Shown: positions 5,196 to 33,446 of the stretch, one piece after another | How the letters are laid out: each line of letters opens with the position of its first letter | How positions within the stretch are numbered: position 1 is the first letter of the stretch | DNA from: Acidobacteriota bacterium | GTDB lineage: Bacteria > Acidobacteriota > Thermoanaerobaculia > Multivoradales > J023 | Direction: 5' to 3' | NCBI GenBank assembly: GCA_029263395.1 | Contig: JAJCXO010000130.1 | Span: forward strand, 1-35,104 | Length of the DNA stretch: 35,104 bases | Position numbers and translations under genes: made by a program | The notes under the pieces: model-generated | What the model was told of the DNA's origin: nothing | The model's input: the letters and a program-made list of their open reading frames with translations, nothing else | Databases searched by the model: none

Positions 5196-5217
5196 GATGG
5201 TCTCCTAGGATGTTGAT

Positions 5218-5286
5218 GGATCTGCTCGAGACTCTGGATCTGCTCAAGACCTGGATCTGCTCAAGACCTGGATCTGCTTTAGACTT
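5218..5286. repeat. Four 17-18 bp tandem repeats in the bactofilin leader
   Basis: Units start at 5218, 5236, 5253 and 5270, each beginning GGATCTGCT. Units 2 and 3 are identical; units 1 and 4 are variants. They lie 22 bp upstream of the bactofilin start, in the divergent region shared with mtaB. They may be a slippage tract or an array of protein-binding sites. Confidence 0.85.
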
Positions 5287-5439: not shown

Positions 5440-6795
5440 ATGCGAATCTATTTCTCCAATCTGGGTTGTAAGCTCAATCAAGCCGAAGTCGACGCTCACG
5501 CACGTCGTTTTGTTGCCGCTGGCCACTCGTTGGTCTCGCGGTTGGAAGAGGCGGACTTCCATATCATCAACTCGTGTACCGTGACCCATCGAGCGGCGCG
5601 AGATTCCCGTAAGGTCGCTCGCCGAGGAAACCGCCAAGGCCTTGGTCTCAAGACCGTTTTGACGGGCTGTTACGCCTCTGCTGAGCCTGCTGAGGCGGCG
5701 CGCTTGGCCGGCGTTGATTTGGTTGTCACCAACGATCAAAAGGACCGCCTGTTGGAGTTGGTTCACGAGGCGTTTCCTGAAGCGATCCCTGAGGCTGAGC
5801 GGCTCCCGATTCCTTACGTCCCGATTCGATTCGGTCGTGCGCGAGCCTTGGTCAAGGTGGAAGACGGATGCAACATGCGGTGTTCCTTCTGCATTATTCC
5901 GTCGACCCGCGGTCGCCAGCGGAGCCGGACGGTGTCGGAGGTAGTGGCCGAGGTTGATGCCTTGGTCGCGGGTGGGTACCAGGAGGTTGTGATCACTGGT
6001 GTCCAGATATCTGAGTATCAGGATGGTGACCAACGTCTCTACGACCTGGTGGCGGCGATACTCGAACACACCGACGTGCCCCGGTTGCGGCTGACTTCTA
6101 TCGCACCCTGGAAGTTTGATCGGCGACTGCTCGAGCTGTGGTCAGACTCACGCTTGGCCCGACACATCCACATGTCCCTTCAGAGCGGCTCTTCCGCAAC
6201 TTTGCGTCGAATGCGACGCCCCTATTCAGCAGATGCTTTTGAAGCGTTGGCCGCGGAGCTGCATGCGGCGATACCGGGGCTGGCCCTGACGACGGATGTG
6301 ATCGTAGGCTTCCCGGGGGAAACAGCGGCAGAATTTTCGGAGAGTCTGGCCTTCGTCGAAAAGATCGGCTTCGCTAAGCCGCATGTCTTCTCTTATTCGG
6401 AGCGAGCCGGAACCCATGCTGCTAGTTTGCCAGATAGCCTACCTCCCGAAGAGATCAAGCAGAGGACTGCCGAGATGTCCAAAATTGCGGCCACCAGCGA
6501 CCGTAATTTTCGGCGCCGGTTCTTGGGCGAGAAAATACAAGTCTTGTGGGAAGAGTGCAAAACTGGACAGTGGAGTGGACTGACCGACAATTACATTCGA
6601 GTCAACGCCGAACAGCATCACGGCCTGCCGACAAAAGACCTGACCGGATCGCTTGGTTATGCTCAACTTGTTGAACTCGATCGGCGTGGGATCCGGGGAT
6701 CTCTTGCCGATTCAGTCGACTGTAACTCGTCCCCCAGTAATTCGCCCCCCAGTAATTCGCCCCAGTTTTTGAAGGCGTTCGATGTGAGCGCCTAG
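5440..6795 (+). CDS. mtaB: tRNA (t6A37) 2-methylthiotransferase MtaB
   Basis: This radical-SAM enzyme (451 aa) is predicted to convert t6A to ms2t6A at position 37 of ANN-decoding tRNAs. The N-terminal MTTase domain holds the three Cys ligands of the auxiliary [4Fe-4S] cluster (LGCKLNQAE C10, NSCTVT C46, TGCY C77). The radical-SAM CxxxCxxC is at C144-C148-C151 (GCNMRCSFC), followed by IIPSTRGRQRSR and the QSGS.....MRR motif. A TRAM-like C-terminal region follows (FLGEKIQVLWEE...GLTDNYIRV). The LGCKLNQAE start is characteristic of MtaB rather than MiaB or RimO. The Shine-Dalgarno is weak. The last 28 codons overlap the 3' end of the convergent Nudix-MBL gene and contain a duplicated 15-bp unit encoding the SNSPPSNSPQ tail. 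Confidence 0.9.
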   Translation: MRIYFSNLGCKLNQAEVDAHARRFVAAGHSLVSRLEEADFHIINSCTVTHRAARDSRKVARRGNRQGLGLKTVLTGCYASAEPAEAARLAGVDLVVTNDQKDRLLELVHEAFPEAIPEAERLPIPYVPIRFGRARALVKVEDGCNMRCSFCIIPSTRGRQRSRTVSEVVAEVDALVAGGYQEVVITGVQISEYQDGDQRLYDLVAAILEHTDVPRLRLTSIAPWKFDRRLLELWSDSRLARHIHMSLQSGSSATLRRMRRPYSADAFEALAAELHAAIPGLALTTDVIVGFPGETAAEFSESLAFVEKIGFAKPHVFSYSERAGTHAASLPDSLPPEEIKQRTAEMSKIAATSDRNFRRRFLGEKIQVLWEECKTGQWSGLTDNYIRVNAEQHHGLPTKDLTGSLGYAQLVELDRRGIRGSLADSVDCNSSPSNSPPSNSPQFLKAFDVSA

Positions 6796-8511: not shown

Positions 8512-10371
8512 ATGACTAAAGACAATCAAGGCGAATCCCACCGCCGGAGCGCAACCCGTGCACCGATCGGTCGTCCGATCAAACTTCAGTTCGACGACTC
8601 GATGGATGTGATCGAGGGACACTGTCGGAACATCTCTATTGGTGGCATGTTCATCGACTTCGACAGCTCGAGGCCGCCGGGCAGCCTGGTGCGTTTTGAT
8701 CTTGCCCTGGACGACGATAGTGCGATTCGTGGTCTCGGGGAAGTGATTTGGATGCGTGCCAAAAGTGACTTTGGCGGCCCTGATGCAGGATTTGGACTGA
8801 AGTTCCGCTTCTTGGAGCAGCAGGATCGTCAGCTTATTTTCAAGCTGGTCAGCCAACACATCAAGAATCGTTTGTCCCGCCGCGAGGGTGAACCTGAATC
8901 AGGTCTGGCTGCGGCACTACCCACGAGCCTACCGCCGACAACCGACTCTCGGCAGGGTGAAGAGTTGTTGCCACCCATTGCTAGCTCTACCTTGGGCGAG
9001 CTTTCTTCACCTGAGCAGGAGGCGCCTGCACCAGCGCATGAATCGATACCAGCCTTCGCCGCCGAACCCGTGGCACCCCCGGTTGAGCAGGCGACTGCCG
9101 CCCCCTACCTCGAGAATTCAGGGTTTGAGGCGTTGACGCCCGCTTCGCAAGCCTCAGGAACCGACGAGACAGTAGCCGAATCAGCAGGTGGCGCCAGTAG
9201 TTTCGAAGCACCCAGTTTCGAAGCACCCAGTTTCGAACCGACAAGTTTCGAACCGACTGAGTTCCCGCCTCGGGTATCGGCCGCTGAGATGTCACAACGT
9301 GAGCCAGCTGGCAAGGCTGTCGAGCCTGCAGCTTCCACCCAATCCGGGGTGAACTTGAAGTTGAGCCCGATGGATCTGAATCCGTCGGTTGGCGATACCC
9401 CCTTATACGAAGTCGGACTGGATCCAGAGTCCCCGCGACCAAGTCTGTTCCAGCAGTCGACCGACGGCCCTGAAGCGACGGACGAGGGCGTTTCCGGTTG
9501 GGGGACCACGGCCTCGGCCGAAAGAGACCTGATGATCGGCACAGAGGCTACGGTTGAGCCTGAAGTCTTGCCTAGCACAACGTCCGGCAAACGAACGTTC
9601 CTGGTATTGCCTGTGGTGGGTGTGCTGCTAGTGGCGTTGGCGGCGGGTTATTACTTTTTTGCGGGTGGTGATCCGGGGCAAGGCACAGTCCCAACGACCC
9701 CTTCAGACGTGGTCGCAGAGCCACAAGATCACCTGATCAACGAAGAGGTCTCACCAGGCACCACTGTCTCACCAGATGCCACAGTCTCACCAGATGCCAT
9801 AGCCGGCGCCGATACCAGCCCTGATCGCAGTTTGGACGATGCTGCTGGTACACCTCCAGTGGAGACGACGGCTCTCGAGCCTGGCTCGGAATCTCAAGCG
9901 TCGATGCCGGTCAGCGAATCACCGATAGCAACAACGCCTGAGCCCAAGCCGACGATGGTCGAGCCATCTCCTCCCCCGCCTTCACCGCCGCCTCGAGCTG
10001 TCGCTGAGACGACCCCGCAGACCTCAGGCAACACATTCTCGCGATTACTCGATATCTCGTGGAGTGATGTCAGCACCGGATCCAAGATTGTTTTGACGGC
10101 GGACGGCCCAATCACCGCCGGGCGTTACAAATATCTTCGATTGGACGGCGAGTCCCCGCGTGAGGTTGTCAAGTTGCTTGGCGTCAGTCGCCGCTTCGAG
10201 AAGTCCACTCTAGCGGTTGTGGCTCCTGGCATTCGACAGATACGAACCGGCTTTCACCAAACCTCGAAGGGCTCGGAGCTTCATATCGTGATCGACCTCA
10301 TCGGGCCAAAGTGGAAGATCACCGAGGTCCGCTCCGTCGGTGATCAACTCGAGCTGTTGATCGGCCAGTAG
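8512..10371 (+). CDS. PilZ domain-transmembrane-AMIN domain protein
   Basis: This 619-aa protein probably links cyclic di-GMP to the cell envelope. An N-terminal PilZ domain (about 10-125) has the binding elements RRSATR (RxxxR) and NISIGG (N/DxSxxG). A long Pro/Ala/Glu-rich linker (about 130-360) follows, then one transmembrane helix (FLVLPVVGVLLVALAAGYYFF, near 365-385) and a second Pro-rich periplasmic linker. The C-terminal AMIN-like domain (about 505-619, starting FSRLLDISWSDVSTG and ending LELLIGQ) belongs to a domain family that binds peptidoglycan or secretin parts. ATG 8512 with GGGAG upstream is preferred over the frame start at 8374, which adds 46 unconserved residues. Two in-frame repeat tracts lie in the linkers. 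It is divergent from the Nudix-MBL gene. Confidence 0.85.
   Translation: MTKDNQGESHRRSATRAPIGRPIKLQFDDSMDVIEGHCRNISIGGMFIDFDSSRPPGSLVRFDLALDDDSAIRGLGEVIWMRAKSDFGGPDAGFGLKFRFLEQQDRQLIFKLVSQHIKNRLSRREGEPESGLAAALPTSLPPTTDSRQGEELLPPIASSTLGELSSPEQEAPAPAHESIPAFAAEPVAPPVEQATAAPYLENSGFEALTPASQASGTDETVAESAGGASSFEAPSFEAPSFEPTSFEPTEFPPRVSAAEMSQREPAGKAVEPAASTQSGVNLKLSPMDLNPSVGDTPLYEVGLDPESPRPSLFQQSTDGPEATDEGVSGWGTTASAERDLMIGTEATVEPEVLPSTTSGKRTFLVLPVVGVLLVALAAGYYFFAGGDPGQGTVPTTPSDVVAEPQDHLINEEVSPGTTVSPDATVSPDAIAGADTSPDRSLDDAAGTPPVETTALEPGSESQASMPVSESPIATTPEPKPTMVEPSPPPPSPPPRAVAETTPQTSGNTFSRLLDISWSDVSTGSKIVLTADGPITAGRYKYLRLDGESPREVVKLLGVSRRFEKSTLAVVAPGIRQIRTGFHQTSKGSELHIVIDLIGPKWKITEVRSVGDQLELLIGQ
9198..9257 (+). 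repeat. Four 15-bp in-frame repeats in the PilZ-protein linker
   Basis: Units start at 9198, 9213, 9228 and 9243 and encode SFEAP twice, then SFEPT twice. The pairwise pattern suggests stepwise slippage. They lie in the cytoplasmic linker between the PilZ domain and the transmembrane helix. Confidence 0.85.
9748..9801 (+). repeat. Three 18-bp in-frame repeats in the periplasmic linker
   Basis: Units start at 9748, 9766 and 9784, each GTCTCACCAG-led, and encode VSPGTT, VSPDAT and VSPDAI in the linker just after the transmembrane helix. Confidence 0.8.
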
Positions 10372-11843: not shown

Positions 11844-13838
11844 ATGACCAAGATGAAACTTGCAGACACCTTTGCCCTCACTCCAGGCAAGCGCACCCTA
11901 TATCTCACCAAAGACCCGGATTTGATTCGGCGTCAGTTGACGGGAGAGGTGGATCTGAGCCTGCGAGACGTCGCCTTAGAGGACCTTCTGGACGACGTGA
12001 ACACCGATGTCATGACTCCGGCCTGGGTGTGTTTCCAACATCGCCCGGAAGATATCGCCCGCGAAGCGTATGCCGGCCTGATCGTCGACGGCGACCGCGT
12101 TTTTGGGCGTGACGCATTGGCCAATGGCAATTTTGAGGTCATCGTCTCTGGCTACCGGAAGGGCGTCGGGAGCTCTCGGGAGACTGCGGTTCAGGCTGAG
12201 AAGTGGTGTGGTATCCGATTGGCGATCGCCGAGTCGTTTGCCCCGATCCATGCCCGCAACAACGTCAATCAGGGTGTTTTAATGGCGGGGTTCGACATCC
12301 TTGCGCGCCTGGAAGCGGGAGAACACATACCGCTCGAGGCATTCAGTAAAGGTTATGACCCGATCACTCGCGAAGTGGTCCGTCACGGCGGGCTGTTCGC
12401 GTTTGCCCGGGCTCTCGAAGCGGAAGAGATCGAGGTCCCGGCGCATCAAACACCCAAACGGCCGATGACGATGAGCGAGAAGATCCTTTCGCGGCATCTC
12501 AAAGGCACCACCGGACCGGGTTATGTCAAGCCTGGAGATGCGGTGTTGGTGGAAGTGGATGGTGGCTACTCCCATGACTTCACGTCAGCGCAGGTGCATT
12601 ACTTTTTGCAGCAAGAGTACGGACCGGACTACCAACTCCGTCACCCGGAACGCTTCGCGGCGTTTGAAGATCATCTCGTTTACGCCGACGAGGTCGTTCG
12701 GATGCGTCCCTACTTGGCCAACGTCAACACGATGCGAGATCTGCAGAGGGAATTCCAGGCGCATTCCGAGGTCGGGGACTATCTCGCCAAAGACGGTGTC
12801 TCGCCGGGGATCTGCCACGAAGTTGCACGCCAAGACATGGTGAGCCCGGGTGACTTCATCCAAGCCACGGACAGTCATACGTGTATGGGCGGGGCCAACA
12901 ACGCCCTGGCGTGGGGAGTTGGATCCACCGAATACGCCAACTTGATTTACAGCGGTTTCACCCAGGTTGAGGTGCCAGAGTCGATCTGCTTTGAGTTGGT
13001 GGGGGAACTGAGCGAAGGGGTCACCGCCAAAGATGTGATGCTCTTCATCCTGTGGAATTTTGCCCGCGAGCAGAAGACCCTGAATCGGGTGATGGAGTTC
13101 ACTGGTGATGGGGTTTCGTCCTTGTCGATGGATGAGCGAGCAACGCTGGCCAATATGGCCACCGAATGTTCAGCTCGCGGTGCGGTGGTGATTGCAGACG
13201 ATAAGACGGGGATCTGGATCGCCGAGAGCCGCCCGGGCACAGATATCGCCGACTTGATGTCGCGGGCGGTGCACCCAGACCCGGATGCTGATTACGTGGG
13301 CGGTGTGCACCGGATCAACTTGCCGGAACTACGGCCGATGGTGGCGCATCCCGGAGACCCGGATCATGGCGTGCCGTCGGACCCCACGAACGGTGCCTGG
13401 ATCGAAGACCTGGGGCAGGTCGAGATCGATATCGCCTACGGCGGTAGCTGTACCGCTGGCAAAATCGACGATCTGGAGTTCTACCACCGAGTTGTCAGTG
13501 AGGCCGTGGCATCGGGTCGCAAGATCCACCCAAGAGTTTCATTTTTGATCCAGTTCGGTTCCAAGACGGCAGAAACCTACGCCCGCGAGCACGGCTTCGT
13601 CGAGGCCTTCGAGCAAGCCGGAGTTCGTCTGATCCAACCCGGGTGCGGAGCCTGTATCGGTTGTGGCCCGGGTGTATCCGAAAACAGCGAACAGGTGACC
13701 GTCAGTGCAATCAATCGCAACTACAAGGGCCGGTCTGGGCCGGGCAGACTCTACTTGGCCTCACCGCTGTCGGTCGCAGCGTCAGCCTTTGTCGGCCACA
13801 TCGTCGCCTACCGGCCCGGCATGTTCGCCAGCAGTTGA
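11844..13838 (+). CDS. Aconitase-superfamily hydro-lyase with N-terminal swivel domain
   Basis: This 664-aa [4Fe-4S] hydro-lyase is related to aconitase, isopropylmalate isomerase and homoaconitase. The swivel (LeuD-like) domain comes first, with VGSSRETAVQAEKWCGIR near residue 107 and IAESFAPIHARNNVNQG, the equivalent of LeuD GSSREHA...SFADIF.N. The catalytic LeuC-like domains follow: DHLVYADEV, ATDSHTCMGGANNALAWGVG (about 340), IAYGGSCTAGKIDDLE (about 533) and QPGCGACIGCGPG (about 599). These supply the three cluster Cys. The end is INRNYKGRSGPGRLYLASPLSVAASA. Swivel-first order is like AcnB, but the HEAT domain is absent. The substrate cannot be told from sequence. The start is ATG 11844 with GATGAG just upstream; M4 is an alternative. 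Confidence 0.85.
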   Translation: MTKMKLADTFALTPGKRTLYLTKDPDLIRRQLTGEVDLSLRDVALEDLLDDVNTDVMTPAWVCFQHRPEDIAREAYAGLIVDGDRVFGRDALANGNFEVIVSGYRKGVGSSRETAVQAEKWCGIRLAIAESFAPIHARNNVNQGVLMAGFDILARLEAGEHIPLEAFSKGYDPITREVVRHGGLFAFARALEAEEIEVPAHQTPKRPMTMSEKILSRHLKGTTGPGYVKPGDAVLVEVDGGYSHDFTSAQVHYFLQQEYGPDYQLRHPERFAAFEDHLVYADEVVRMRPYLANVNTMRDLQREFQAHSEVGDYLAKDGVSPGICHEVARQDMVSPGDFIQATDSHTCMGGANNALAWGVGSTEYANLIYSGFTQVEVPESICFELVGELSEGVTAKDVMLFILWNFAREQKTLNRVMEFTGDGVSSLSMDERATLANMATECSARGAVVIADDKTGIWIAESRPGTDIADLMSRAVHPDPDADYVGGVHRINLPELRPMVAHPGDPDHGVPSDPTNGAWIEDLGQVEIDIAYGGSCTAGKIDDLEFYHRVVSEAVASGRKIHPRVSFLIQFGSKTAETYAREHGFVEAFEQAGVRLIQPGCGACIGCGPGVSENSEQVTVSAINRNYKGRSGPGRLYLASPLSVAASAFVGHIVAYRPGMFASS

Positions 13839-13888
13839 CGGTAGCACTCACGTCTTTGCCGACGACCCGTTGGTGTAGACAGCGGTTA

Positions 13889-14163
13889 GCTTGATCGCAT
13901 CCGTTATCAAGTCGATCAAGCGCACCTGCTTGCTTGATCGCATCCGCTATCAATTCGATAAAGCGTCTTGATCTGCTTGATCGCATCTCTTGCCAGGTCG
14001 ATAAAGCACGCTGTCTGCTTGATCGCATCCGTTTTCAGGTCGATCAAGCACCTCGGTTTGCTTGATCGCATCTCTTGCAGAGTCGATAAAGCAATCCATC
14101 TGCTTGATCGTATGGATAAGAAAGGCGATCAAGAATGCCTGTCGCTTGATCGAATAGCGGACG
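13889..14163. repeat. Hairpin-forming tandem repeat array, seven units of 42-43 bp
   Basis: GCTTGATCG recurs at 13889, 13932, 13975, 14017, 14060, 14102 and 14144, a period of 42-43 bp. In units 1-6 it is followed 15 nt later by CGATCAAGC (units 1 and 4), CGATAAAGC (units 2, 3, 5) or CGATCAAGA (unit 6). Each is therefore a 9-bp stem with a 15-nt loop, separated by 9-10 nt. Loops are of two main types, CATCCG... (units 1, 2, 4) and CATCTCTTGC... (units 3, 5), so units 2-3 and 4-5 look like a duplicated pair. Unit 7 is a half unit that ends at the acr3 stop. The array fills the whole gap between the convergent aconitase-like and acr3 genes. It contains short open frames on both strands that I regard as by-products. 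Confidence 0.9.
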
Positions 14164-15276
14164 TTACCGGGTCTCCAGAGACTCTCCCTTGGACCCGGAA
14201 TACAACCGACGGCGTAGGGCCAGGCTCACGTGGACTAGGCTGATCAACACCGGCACCTCGACCAGGGGCCCGACAACTGTCGCAAAGGCGACGGGCGAGC
14301 TGATCCCAAAGACGCCGATGGCTACAGCGATCGCCAGCTCGAAGTTATTGCCGGAGGCGGTGAATGCGAGAGTTGCAGCCCTTGGGTAGTCGGCGCCGAC
14401 CCTCCAGGCCATGAAGAAGCTGACGAAGAACATGATCCCGAAGTAGGCGCTCAGGGGAAGCGCGATCCAGAGAACGTCCAAAGGCTGACTGAGGATCTGC
14501 TCGCCCTGGGTCGAGAACATCACCACGATCGTGAAGAGCAGGGCCAGCAAAGTGATCGGAGAGATGCGAGGCACGAAGACGCGGTCGTACCAGTCTGCTC
14601 CCTTCAGGGGCAGCAGGATCTTCCGGCTGAGAATCCCGGCCGCAAAGGGAATGCCCAGATAGACCATCACACTCGCGAAGATCTCGCTGATCGTCACCTC
14701 GACGATCGCTCCCTCGAGACCGAAAAGCGGCGGCAGTACGGTGACAAAAACCCAGGCGTAGATACCGAAGGTCAAGATCTGGAAGACGCTGTTCAGGGCC
14801 ACGAGCCCTGCCGCATACTCGCTGCTACCCTGGGCGAGCTGGTTCCAGACGAGCACCATGGCGATACAGCGGGCGATGCCGACCAGAATCAAGCCCACCA
14901 TGTACTGGCTCCAGCGCGGATCCGGCCCGAAGAGAGTGGGCGCCAGGAAACCGAAGAAGCCGATGGCCAGCAGGAACATTAGCGCCGGGCCGACGATCCA
15001 GTTTTGGATCAAGGAGAGTCCGAGGACCTTAACGTCCGCGAATACCTTTGGCATCAGCTCGTACTTCACCTTGGCCAGCGGCGGGTACATCATGAGGATC
15101 AGCCCCGCCGCAATCAGTAGATTGGTGTTCTCGCCGACCGTCAGGGCTTCGTTGAATTGCGCGACCCGCGCCTGGAAGAGGACCCCGATGGCCACCCCGA
15201 GCGCCATGGCCAGAAAGATCCAAACGGTTAGGTACCGGTCCAGGAGAGAGAGATTCTTGCTGAGATTCTGTTCCAT
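14164..15276 (-). CDS. acr3: Arsenite efflux transporter, Acr3 family
   Basis: The 370-aa integral membrane protein has ten predicted helices and would pump arsenite out across the inner membrane using the proton gradient. Family marks are [41 protein letters not shown], the functional Cys in [13 protein letters not shown], and [20 protein letters not shown] followed by [11 protein letters not shown]. It matches the family in length. No arsR, arsC or arsM is adjacent, which is unusual because acr3 normally sits in an ars operon. The YfcE-like gene lies upstream on the same strand across about 72 bp containing a duplicated 18-mer. The stop abuts the hairpin array. Confidence 0.92.
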
Positions 15277-15294
15277 TAGATGTAGTGGCCTCGG

Positions 15295-15330
15295 TGTCGC
15301 CCACCGTTGTTATGTCGCCTACCGTTGTTA
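15295..15330. repeat. Two 18-bp tandem repeats between yfcE-like gene and acr3
   Basis: 15295-15312 and 15313-15330 are copies of TGTCGCC(C/T)ACCGTTGTTA, one mismatch apart, in the acr3 leader. A degenerate third copy may follow. Confidence 0.8.
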
Positions 15331-15348
15331 TTCGGTCCCAGCCACCAG

Positions 15349-15804
15349 TTATTCGATCGAGAGGATCTCCGGTACCAGGCGATCAGCGTTGACCGTGACA
15401 AAAGCCATCGTCAGCGGCAGCTTGAAGCGTCGAGGACCGATGGCGCCTGGGTTCATGAGCAGGCATCCCCGGTTCCACTCGAGCTCTGGACGGTGAGAGT
15501 GGCCGAACACAATGAGTTGGCAGTCGCGGGGCCAGTCGGCACCTACATCTTCACGACGATGGGTCATTCGATAGGAGATTCCTTCAACCGAGCCGGTGAC
15601 CGTCAAAGGTAAGCTAGCCGCCAGCGCGCCGCCATCCGTGTTCCCCCGAACAGCCTCTACCGGTGCAATCGTTGCGAGCTGCTCGAGGATAGTACGGTCG
15701 CCAACGTCTCCGGCATGAAGGATGCGATCGACTCCGATCAGCCGGTCCAGAATGCCGGGCCGCAACAGACCATGGGTGTCAGACAGGACGCCGAGTCGGA
15801 ACAT
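15349..15804 (-). CDS. YfcE/MJ0936-family metallophosphodiesterase
   Basis: The 151-aa calcineurin-like phosphoesterase is of the small YfcE type, which hydrolyses phosphodiesters; physiological substrates are mostly unknown. All metal-binding motifs are present in order: SDTHG (residue 8 on), HAGDVGD (about 31-37), RGNTDGG (about 54), the MTHR His (about 80), FGHSHRPELE (about 99) and the closing NPGAI. It is cytoplasmic, with no signal peptide. It is upstream of acr3 on the same strand, but the spacing leaves co-transcription open. The ATG at 15804 has no strong ribosome-binding site. Confidence 0.88.
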   Translation of the reverse strand: MFRLGVLSDTHGLLRPGILDRLIGVDRILHAGDVGDRTILEQLATIAPVEAVRGNTDGGALAASLPLTVTGSVEGISYRMTHRREDVGADWPRDCQLIVFGHSHRPELEWNRGCLLMNPGAIGPRRFKLPLTMAFVTVNADRLVPEILSIE

Positions 15805-15880
15805 GGTTGCGAGTCTACGGCAGATGATAACCTTGCGCCATCTACCGTTTTTATTGAGCGATCTCCAGAAGGCCTACGCA

Positions 15881-16219
15881 ATGTATGTAGACAAGAGCCG
15901 AATCGAAGGGATGAGTCTTCTGCGGGTCGAAGGCATCATCAAACTAGGGGAGAGTGCGGAGTTTCTAGCCGAGAATCTCAAGCGTACGCTCGAGAAAGAC
16001 GACGGGCATGTCCTTCTCGACTTCTCGAAGATCAACTACATCGATTCGACCGGCATCGGAGAACTCGTAGGCTATCTGGGGCGGTTCACGGAGCTTGACC
16101 GCAAGCTCATCTTGATCAATCCCTCAGATCGAATCCGCAAGTTACTGGCGATCGCCCAGCTAGACAGCCTGTTTCCGACCTACCCCGACGTCGAGTCGGC
16201 AGTAGCGGCCGAAAGTTAG
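15881..16219 (+). CDS. STAS-domain anti-sigma factor antagonist (SpoIIAA/RsbV-like)
   Basis: This 112-aa single STAS domain probably binds an anti-sigma kinase and is switched off by its phosphorylation. The diagnostic LLDFSKINYIDSTGIGELVG contains the phospho-acceptor Ser in DSTGIG, preceded by VEGIIKLGESAEFLAENLKR and followed by DRKLILINPSDRIRKLL. ATG 15881 is preferred, with AGAAGG nine bases upstream; earlier starts in the frame only read through the yfcE-like promoter side. No RsbW-type kinase or sigma factor is adjacent, so the partner is encoded elsewhere. Confidence 0.85.
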   Translation: MYVDKSRIEGMSLLRVEGIIKLGESAEFLAENLKRTLEKDDGHVLLDFSKINYIDSTGIGELVGYLGRFTELDRKLILINPSDRIRKLLAIAQLDSLFPTYPDVESAVAAES

Positions 16220-32622: not shown

Positions 32623-32673
32623 GTGCCGCCGTCTCTTGAGCGCTGCCGTCTCTTGGGTGCCGCCCGTCTCTAG
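32623..32673. repeat. Three degenerate 17-bp tandem repeats
   Basis: Between the M49-like stop and the convergent methyltransferase stop, a GYGCYGCCGTCTCTTG-like unit occurs three times (from 32623, 32640 and 32657), with decreasing identity. Confidence 0.65.
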
Positions 32674-33446
32674 GGCATTCCGCGGCGCCGAAAAATCTCG
32701 AACAGGGCCACGGCAGCGGCCACGGTCGCGTTCAGTGACTCCACAGGTGGCAGGGTAGGGATCGTCAGCTCGAGGTCGATATTGGCCTGTACCTGTGGAG
32801 ATAGTCCTCGACCTTCAGCTCCTAGTGCCAAGACGAGGCAGCCGGAAAAGTCCGCCTCGAACAGATTCTGCCCCCCTCGAGTTGCCAGCCCCAACCAACG
32901 GGGCAGCTTCCCCTCTAGGCGAGTGCCGAGAGCTTCTGGAGAACAGTTGACCGCTACAGGTATCCTTAACAGGCTGCCTGCGGAAGCTCTCAGGGCTCTT
33001 GGGTGATTGGGGTGGACTGTGTGTCGGTTGAGGCAGAGAGCTGCAGCTCCAGTCGCTTCCGCGACCCTACTGAGTGCTCCCAGATTTCCTGGGTCCTGGA
33101 GCCCGTCGGCATATACTACGACTGGACTCTTGCCAAAGGAGAGCGCTTCAATCTGTTGCCGTGGTAAGCGCATGACCGCGACAATGCCCCGGGGCGAGTC
33201 ACTATCTGTGACTTCGGTGAGTAACCCTTGATCGATTGCCAACGGACGGAAGGGGAGTAGGGGAGCCAGCTTCCGTGCGGCTGCGCTATCCATAAACTCA
33301 GGGGTAGCTAGCACTGAGCGGGGCTCATACCCTGACGTCAGGGCTTCTGCAATCAAGTGAGGCCCCTCGAGCAACGCCCATCCGTCTTTACTTCGCTGCG
33401 CCTGACGAATAATCTTCAGTTGTTCATTCTTACGACTGGTGATCAT
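32670..33446 (-). CDS. TrmH/SpoU-family rRNA or tRNA 2'-O-methyltransferase
   Basis: The 258-aa SPOUT enzyme transfers a methyl group from AdoMet to a ribose 2'-OH. An N-terminal substrate-binding domain (MITSRKNEQLKIIRQAQRSK, then WALLEGPHLIAEAL) is followed by the knotted domain with motif 1 DPGNLGALSRVAEATGAAAL, motif 2 LALGAEGRGLSPQ and motif 3 IPTLPPVESLNATVAAAVAL. The RlmB/TrmH-type N-terminus suggests an rRNA target, but the exact base cannot be told. The ATG at 33446 overlaps the divergent gene's ATG by 2 bp. Confidence 0.9.
   Translation of the reverse strand: MITSRKNEQLKIIRQAQRSKDGWALLEGPHLIAEALTSGYEPRSVLATPEFMDSAAARKLAPLLPFRPLAIDQGLLTEVTDSDSPRGIVAVMRLPRQQIEALSFGKSPVVVYADGLQDPGNLGALSRVAEATGAAALCLNRHTVHPNHPRALRASAGSLLRIPVAVNCSPEALGTRLEGKLPRWLGLATRGGQNLFEADFSGCLVLALGAEGRGLSPQVQANIDLELTIPTLPPVESLNATVAAAVALFEIFRRRGMP

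Follow-up and report, generated by a model that had tools for sequence, protein, structure and literature searches.

The palindromic units described here can be likened, by description alone, to the NIME/dRS3 elements of Neisseria and to boxB of the pneumococcal BOX element, which have inverted arms that enclose a variable core, or a unit of about 45 bp repeated in tandem. GTAG- and CGTC-tagged REPs and BIMEs are intergenic palindromes of 20–40 bp (PMC3733652, PMC2817692); REPs are described as found chiefly downstream of genes, where the neighboring genes converge or run in one direction (PMC3733652). In Pseudomonas fluorescens SBW25, REPs form ordered tandem arrays, one type of which has separations of 72 and 112 bp (PMC3116915). 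Among TnpAY1 proteins, subclass 2.1 (TIRYT) is reported to have no REP-like sequences in its vicinity; class 3 HUH proteins are reported to occur in Acidobacteria, where Solibacter has about 600 atypical structures (PMC6006769). A study of Solibacter ran repeat finders, with no repeat periods given in the part of its text that was available (PMC3174227).

The window (the whole 35,104-nt stretch of DNA analyzed) is contig C130 of an Acidobacteriota genome, G000, of 10.7 Mb in 291 contigs. At 13888–14155 it contains six complete 35-nt palindromic units and a left half-unit, of the formula TGCTTGATCG-N15-CGAT[C/A]AAGCA. The motif GCTTGATCG starts at 13889, 13932, 13975, 14017, 14060, 14102, and 14144, with unit-to-unit spacings of 43, 43, 42, 43, 42, and 42; linkers between units are 7–8 nt long, all units share one orientation, and Tandem Repeats Finder calls the array at periods of 43, 85, and 128. 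The first-pass annotation had described a seven-unit array at 42–43 bp spacing, and both starts and spacing agree with this, except that the seventh unit (14143–14155, forward strand as for all units) is a left arm only. Stems had been called conserved, which is fully true of unit 1 (13888–13922) and of unit 4 (14016–14050; perfect stem and the top model score within the window), where all nine pairs are present. Units 2 (13931–13965), 3 (13974–14008), and 5 (14059–14093) carry the right arm CGATAAAGC, which places one G.A mismatch inside the stem, and unit 6 (14101–14135), whose loop is divergent, has lost the outermost G-C pair. Two alternating loop types, as had been proposed, are not what the sequence contains: there are three types (CATCCG in units 1, 2, and 4; CATCTCTTGC in 3 and 5; TATGGA in 6), and their order does not strictly alternate. 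The duplicated two-unit block was recovered, with 85 nt present twice (13926–14010 and 14011–14095) at 80% identity. A CRISPR array with unique spacers of about 25–40 nt is ruled out by the 7–8 nt linkers, as the annotation had correctly judged.

The array is comparable to the REP/REPIN arrays of SBW25, likewise evenly spaced extragenic palindromes that occur in several groups per genome together with RAYT genes; it differs from them in its 42–43 bp period, in the unrelated families to which such arrays belong here, in lacking the GTAG tag, and in the few arrays per family (PMC3116915). The units are like tagged REPs and BIMEs in being short intergenic palindromes between genes that converge or run in one direction. 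However, BIMEs alternate in orientation where the window units do not, and, unlike tagged REPs, the given units are confined to arrays except for weak single sites (PMC3733652, PMC2817692). By eye, no GTAG/GGAG or CGTC tag was found in units or linkers. The palindrome does recur at several places in the genome, in three arrays; two further marks of REPs and REPINs, numerous single units dispersed through the genome and a cognate RAYT gene flanked by the repeat, were not found in G000. Because tag, cognate RAYT, and numerous dispersed copies are all lacking, we do not class the units as REPs, but only as elements that would act in a similar way.

Whole-genome DNA searches recovered two further arrays of the family in G000, one of six units on contig C143 and one of five units plus a right half on C36. 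The pattern CTTGATCG-N8-24-GATMAAG gave 33 strand hits in the whole genome, 24 of them in the three arrays and nine scattered, and the same pattern read backwards, as a control, gave none. With covariance models, all G000 matches better than E 0.1 (17 scored units) fell inside the three arrays, and single sites outside them were weak (E 0.13–0.64). The same approach identified a fourth array on contig C747 of G001 (Acidobacteriota OFTM268), the sole genome of the same genus in the set searched; this array has five units and a decayed one at the right spacing. The search for other copies that the first-pass annotation had called for succeeded, and its alternative, that the array is nothing but local slippage, is refuted in that form by the array copies elsewhere in the genome and in the congener.

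Outside these two genomes the family appears as single sites. Model R1 matched 13 of 59 genomes at E 0.01: G000, G001, and 11 others, each of which has one or two single sites of weak score, several of them in a common sequence context. When repeats were checked at eight loci, an array was present only in the G001 locus, and no arrays of the family were found in five other genomes of the taxonomic family or in 52 of the order. Across 84,980 species, represented by one genome each, the unit was found in 42 stretches, with an array only in the congener (L055); one other stretch, L063 from Treponema, carries its own tandem repeat, with a period of 21/63. Three single sites of the unit were found in viral contigs.

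For both strands of the window array, the predicted fold is more stable than in dinucleotide shuffles (z -6.9 and -6.3; 0/200 shuffles as good), and the predicted whole-array fold consists chiefly of long-range pairing between units, not of seven separate hairpins. No intrinsic terminator (a GC-rich stem and T run) was predicted within 13888–14155, where the intrinsic terminator reading is accordingly rejected; the sole predicted site lies outside the array, at 14206–14223. No Rfam model matched the window at gathering score, and a known Rfam RNA family was rejected on that ground. The bidirectional terminator or barrier that had been suggested from the palindromic symmetry is not supported by the same terminator prediction, and the two sister arrays in G000 sit between genes of the same direction.

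Across the 22 units of the four arrays, arms are conserved where loops and linkers drift. Between arrays, identity is 0.87 and 0.86 for the two arms, 0.40 for loops, and 0.29 for linkers; within arrays, it is 88–90% for arms, 58% for loops, and 48% for linkers. Loops are more alike within than between arrays (0/500 label permutations reached the observed likeness), which points to tandem duplication inside each array. A check of stem covariation, also proposed by the first-pass annotation, found no compensatory change among the 22 units (nor among 17 units), with 11.8% of stem cells in the family unpaired. The absence of changes on both sides of the stem suggests that the sequence of the arms has been kept, rather than pairing as such, and these comparisons favor a conserved arm sequence, as a candidate binding site, over a conserved RNA shape.

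The window array lies between an aconitase-family gene on its left (11844–13838, forward strand) and an acr3 arsenite efflux gene on its right (14164–15276, reverse strand; TIGR00832, 405 bits). It had been said to fill the whole gap, which overstates its extent by 49 nt on the aconitase side and 8 nt on the acr3 side. A 1.93-kb segment of G000 (13839–15770), comprising the array, acr3, and a YfcE-like gene, is missing at the counterpart place in G001, where the aconitase gene is followed by about 30 nt and then by sequence matching the window from 15771 on, including a STAS gene (15803–16219 in the window). This STAS gene was not found in stretches around the aconitase gene from five other genomes of the taxonomic family. 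Acr3 shares 92% of its residues with a protein in G002, from another genus, and 59% over 255 residues with one in G001; at the DNA level, acr3 is 88% identical to that of G002, and the adjoining aconitase gene about 71–72%. This closeness to the G002 copy suggests that acr3 was probably acquired horizontally.

At C143 and C36, each array's two flanks match separate G001 contigs, and the sequence read next to these matches is a different one. The neighborhood of the congener array has just one partial match in G000, and no empty site was shown there. All four family arrays have one end 8–45 nt from a stop codon, and they sit in convergent or tandem gaps. Beside the C36 array, sequence at L134 1279–1680 (G001 contig C659) joins stretches that lie about 2 kb apart in G000; at this junction most of the body of an ADOP-type permease gene is missing in G001. 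Other tandem repeats occupy counterpart places in related genomes, at L138 2343–2565 (14-bp units), L144 3647–3852 (52/25-bp), and L135 3198–3244 (13-bp). Since counterpart places hold different repeats, intergenic arrays seem to turn over fast.

Intergenic, often palindromic arrays that favor a period of 42–43 bp form a genus-wide class, to which the window array belongs. The 1.55 Mb sampled from G000 has 510 gaps of 100 nt or more; arrays at lags of 20–70 (lags under 20 being excluded from this count) occur in 38 of them, and 24 of these 38 have a period of 41–44 bp, mostly in unrelated sequence families; shuffled gaps gave no arrays. The proportion is 21/35 with the given family set aside. 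Most G000 stretches came from contigs with pattern or PF01797 hits; the least biased sample, 303 kb for which round contig numbers were the sole basis of choice (C140 left out), agrees with the fuller one, at 3/5 arrays. In G001, six of eight arrays have periods of 41–43 bp, and in 400 kb of G002 and G006, two other genera of the same taxonomic family, none of five arrays falls at 41–44 bp and one falls at 40. The window array itself belongs to the class as a noncoding tandem array at 41–44 bp. The 305 kb of the 42 stretches from the species-wide scan hold 11 noncoding arrays, of which the one at 42 bp is the congener's own.

Other counting schemes gave the class different shares. A looser scan (lags 20–90, reduced to the fundamental) placed 30 of 60 noncoding G000 arrays in the class. 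Tandem repeats of many periods abound in the noncoding DNA of this lineage: in 1.15 Mb of G000, Tandem Repeats Finder, at periods of at least 10 bp, put 11 of 66 noncoding arrays at 41–44 bp, the commonest periods being 14–17 bp (29/66); for arrays of at least 90 bp (n = 21), the 41–44 bp group was the largest. Autocorrelation of noncoding sequence has its top lag at 42 in both G000 (z 13.6) and G001 (z 6.3), and lags 84 and 126 are elevated too; at lag 42, z is 2.3 in G002, and in G006 this lag is outside the top 12. With the G000 arrays masked, lag 42 drops out of the top 12 and 84 remains (z 4.5).

A period of 42 could also stem from 14-residue protein repeats (42 = 3 x 14), which is unlikely, as window-type arrays drift between 42 and 43. 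For 27 of 29 arrays, no stop-to-stop frame across the array exceeds 219 codons, the exceptions being L283 (460 codons) and L265 in G001 (447); more than one frame is open in many arrays of pure 42-bp period, and 2/83 G000 arrays overlapping called genes are at period 42. Single arrays may still be coding.

The sequence families within the class are diverse. Of 29 consensus units, 16 join five clusters above the highest of 600 shuffled alignment scores (22), one marginal pair (score 23) bridging two of the clusters, and 13 remain single. A second family, ATCTAACGG..CCGTTAGAT (also ATCTAACGGG..CCCGTTAGAT), shares the layout of the window family, a 35-nt palindrome and an 8-nt linker, and forms three G000 arrays; it had no match in G001–G006. 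One of its 195 stem cells is changed on both sides, fewer than in shuffles. With hand-set array bounds, the mean fold z of consensus units was -1.7, as compared with -0.5 for random noncoding windows, and 13/29 units vs 8/40 windows fell below -1.65; predicted hairpins are common, not universal, in the class.

Transposase-like genes were surveyed as possible partners. Matches to Y1_Tnp (PF01797) number about 17–18 in G000 and 16–21 in G001. G000 has long TnpAY1-like proteins, a point of likeness to the subclass 2.1 and class 3 systems (PMC6006769); three long proteins (322–368 aa) score 42–44 bits with NCBIfam REP_Tyr_transpos, below its cut-off of 80. Among 15 long TnpAY1-like genes, seven have a 39–45 bp-period array within 700 nt on the 5′ side and two have one on the 3′ side; four of the 15 (L184, L171, and two in L250) joined the set once their neighboring arrays were known, one L250 gene is bounded by homology and not by a clean frame, and L147 (short-type, with its frame extended, and without an array) was excluded by hand. 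Two long genes had too little upstream sequence and were dropped, leaving 7/13 testable genes with a 5′ array vs 35/447 control genes, for which an upstream gap of 200 nt or more was required (Fisher 4e-5). Long genes within the sampled stretches gave 6/9 (Fisher 3e-5), the long ones (n = 11) among 20 PF01797 loci gave 3/9 testable, and a broader test of all 20 loci gave 7/20 vs 142/1865 and 164/1834 control windows. This position is unlike what is reported for subclass 2.1, to which the G000 proteins may belong (PMC6006769). At L171 (9217–9768) and L157 (2130–2404; G001 contig C113), arrays of 41–42 bp period stand at the equal 5′ place of matching TnpAY1-like genes; the genes are 82% identical over 1.27 kb, and the consensus units of the two arrays do not align above chance.

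Other observations count against such a link. PF01797 matches number 22 in G006 and 12 in G002, roughly as many as in G000 and G001, yet the sampled stretches of these genomes lack the class. No PF01797 match was found on C130, C143, C36, or G001 C747, the contigs that carry the given family, and the model of that family had no match in the 20 TnpAY1 loci, where only scattered CTTGATC/GATCAAG motifs occur. A short IS200-type Y1 transposase gene at L149 has its own 57-nt inverted repeats (1377–1433 and 1979–2035; 96% complementary), and their difference from the arrays also counts against a transposase link. Sequence related to this L149 repeat was seen by eye as a 110-bp tandem pair at L214 11260–11480. 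RAYT-like genes as a cause are thus supported by position for some arrays, and weakened by the gene counts of G006 and G002.

As to the function and the maker of the arrays, we infer a reading toward which we lean tentatively, while stopping short of calling it probable: the window array would represent REP/BIME-like tandem extragenic palindromes, with arms recognized by a protein, as a member of the genus-wide 42–43 bp class. Inverted arm pairs would be recognized in DNA, perhaps by a TnpAY1/RAYT-like HUH enzyme or by another protein that sees inverted pairs; seeds would spread to intergenic places that tolerate insertions, and each array would then be grown and homogenized by tandem duplication in steps of 42–43 bp. 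Such a step is close to four turns of B-DNA and could keep successive sites on one helix face. Counting against this reading are the lack of GTAG and CGTC tags, the 42-bp families that are not strongly palindromic, the small share of 41–44 bp arrays in the all-period Tandem Repeats Finder survey, and the observations given above against a transposase link. RNA hairpins would form wherever an array is transcribed, probably as a by-product. Were these hairpins instead the functional form, acting at transcript 3′ ends as a bidirectional terminator, barrier, or mRNA stabilizer, the stop codons close to one end of all four family arrays, the strong folding of both strands, and the enrichment of 41–44 bp arrays in convergent gaps (9/24 vs 77/510 gaps, Fisher 0.005, with gap contexts from codon-score-based gene calls) would be accounted for. 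However, 8/24 of these arrays lie in divergent gaps, no T-tract terminator is predicted in the window array, and compensatory stem changes are absent in the given family and rarer than in shuffles in the second, so that we consider an RNA element very improbable.

Conservation of arm sequence without compensation, together with a period near 42 bp in many families, is also what would be seen if the arms were operator or architectural sites, bound by a dimeric regulator or nucleoid protein with phasing of about four turns and no tie to a transposase. This is unlikely in our view, as arms are unrelated among the other families, and many proteins would be needed; moreover, the four family arrays stand in convergent or tandem gaps near stop codons, and no candidate protein was found. 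A selfish or neutral minisatellite, in which palindromes stall replication, slippage expands the array, and the duplication machinery sets a period of no function for the cell, fits a lineage whose noncoding DNA is full of tandem repeats of many periods, the homogenized units within arrays, and the places beside matching genes that differ in their arrays or have none (L171/L263, L135/L138). Against it stand the arms, which keep 86–87% identity from array to array and across species although loops and linkers have diverged; their recurrence on three contigs, too, goes beyond slippage alone. We judge it distinctly unlikely.

What is new here is the preferred period across families; no description of a 42–43 bp array class was found in the literature, as judged by titles and abstract openings. 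One sharp period across unrelated noncoding sequences, limited to the genus in the present sample, would call for a ruler, whether a protein, a duplication mechanism, or DNA phasing. In a broader version, which we regard as possible if somewhat doubtful, the genus would carry, by extrapolation, something of the order of a hundred intergenic satellites of unrelated families measured by one 42–43 bp ruler and made by a dedicated activity, possibly that of the long TnpAY1/HUH proteins. If true, this would constitute a bacterial satellite system in which unit length is fixed and sequence is free. Should the link to long TnpAY1 genes hold, the arrays would be a candidate DNA partner for such proteins, whose possible subclass was reported without REP-like neighbors (PMC6006769).

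Further short tandem repeats, with periods of 15–21, occur in the window at 784–844, 5217–5278, 6722–6763, 9199–9252, 9748–9799, and 32623–32675; by eye, the repeat at 784–844 contains the palindrome TGCCAC..GTGGCA.
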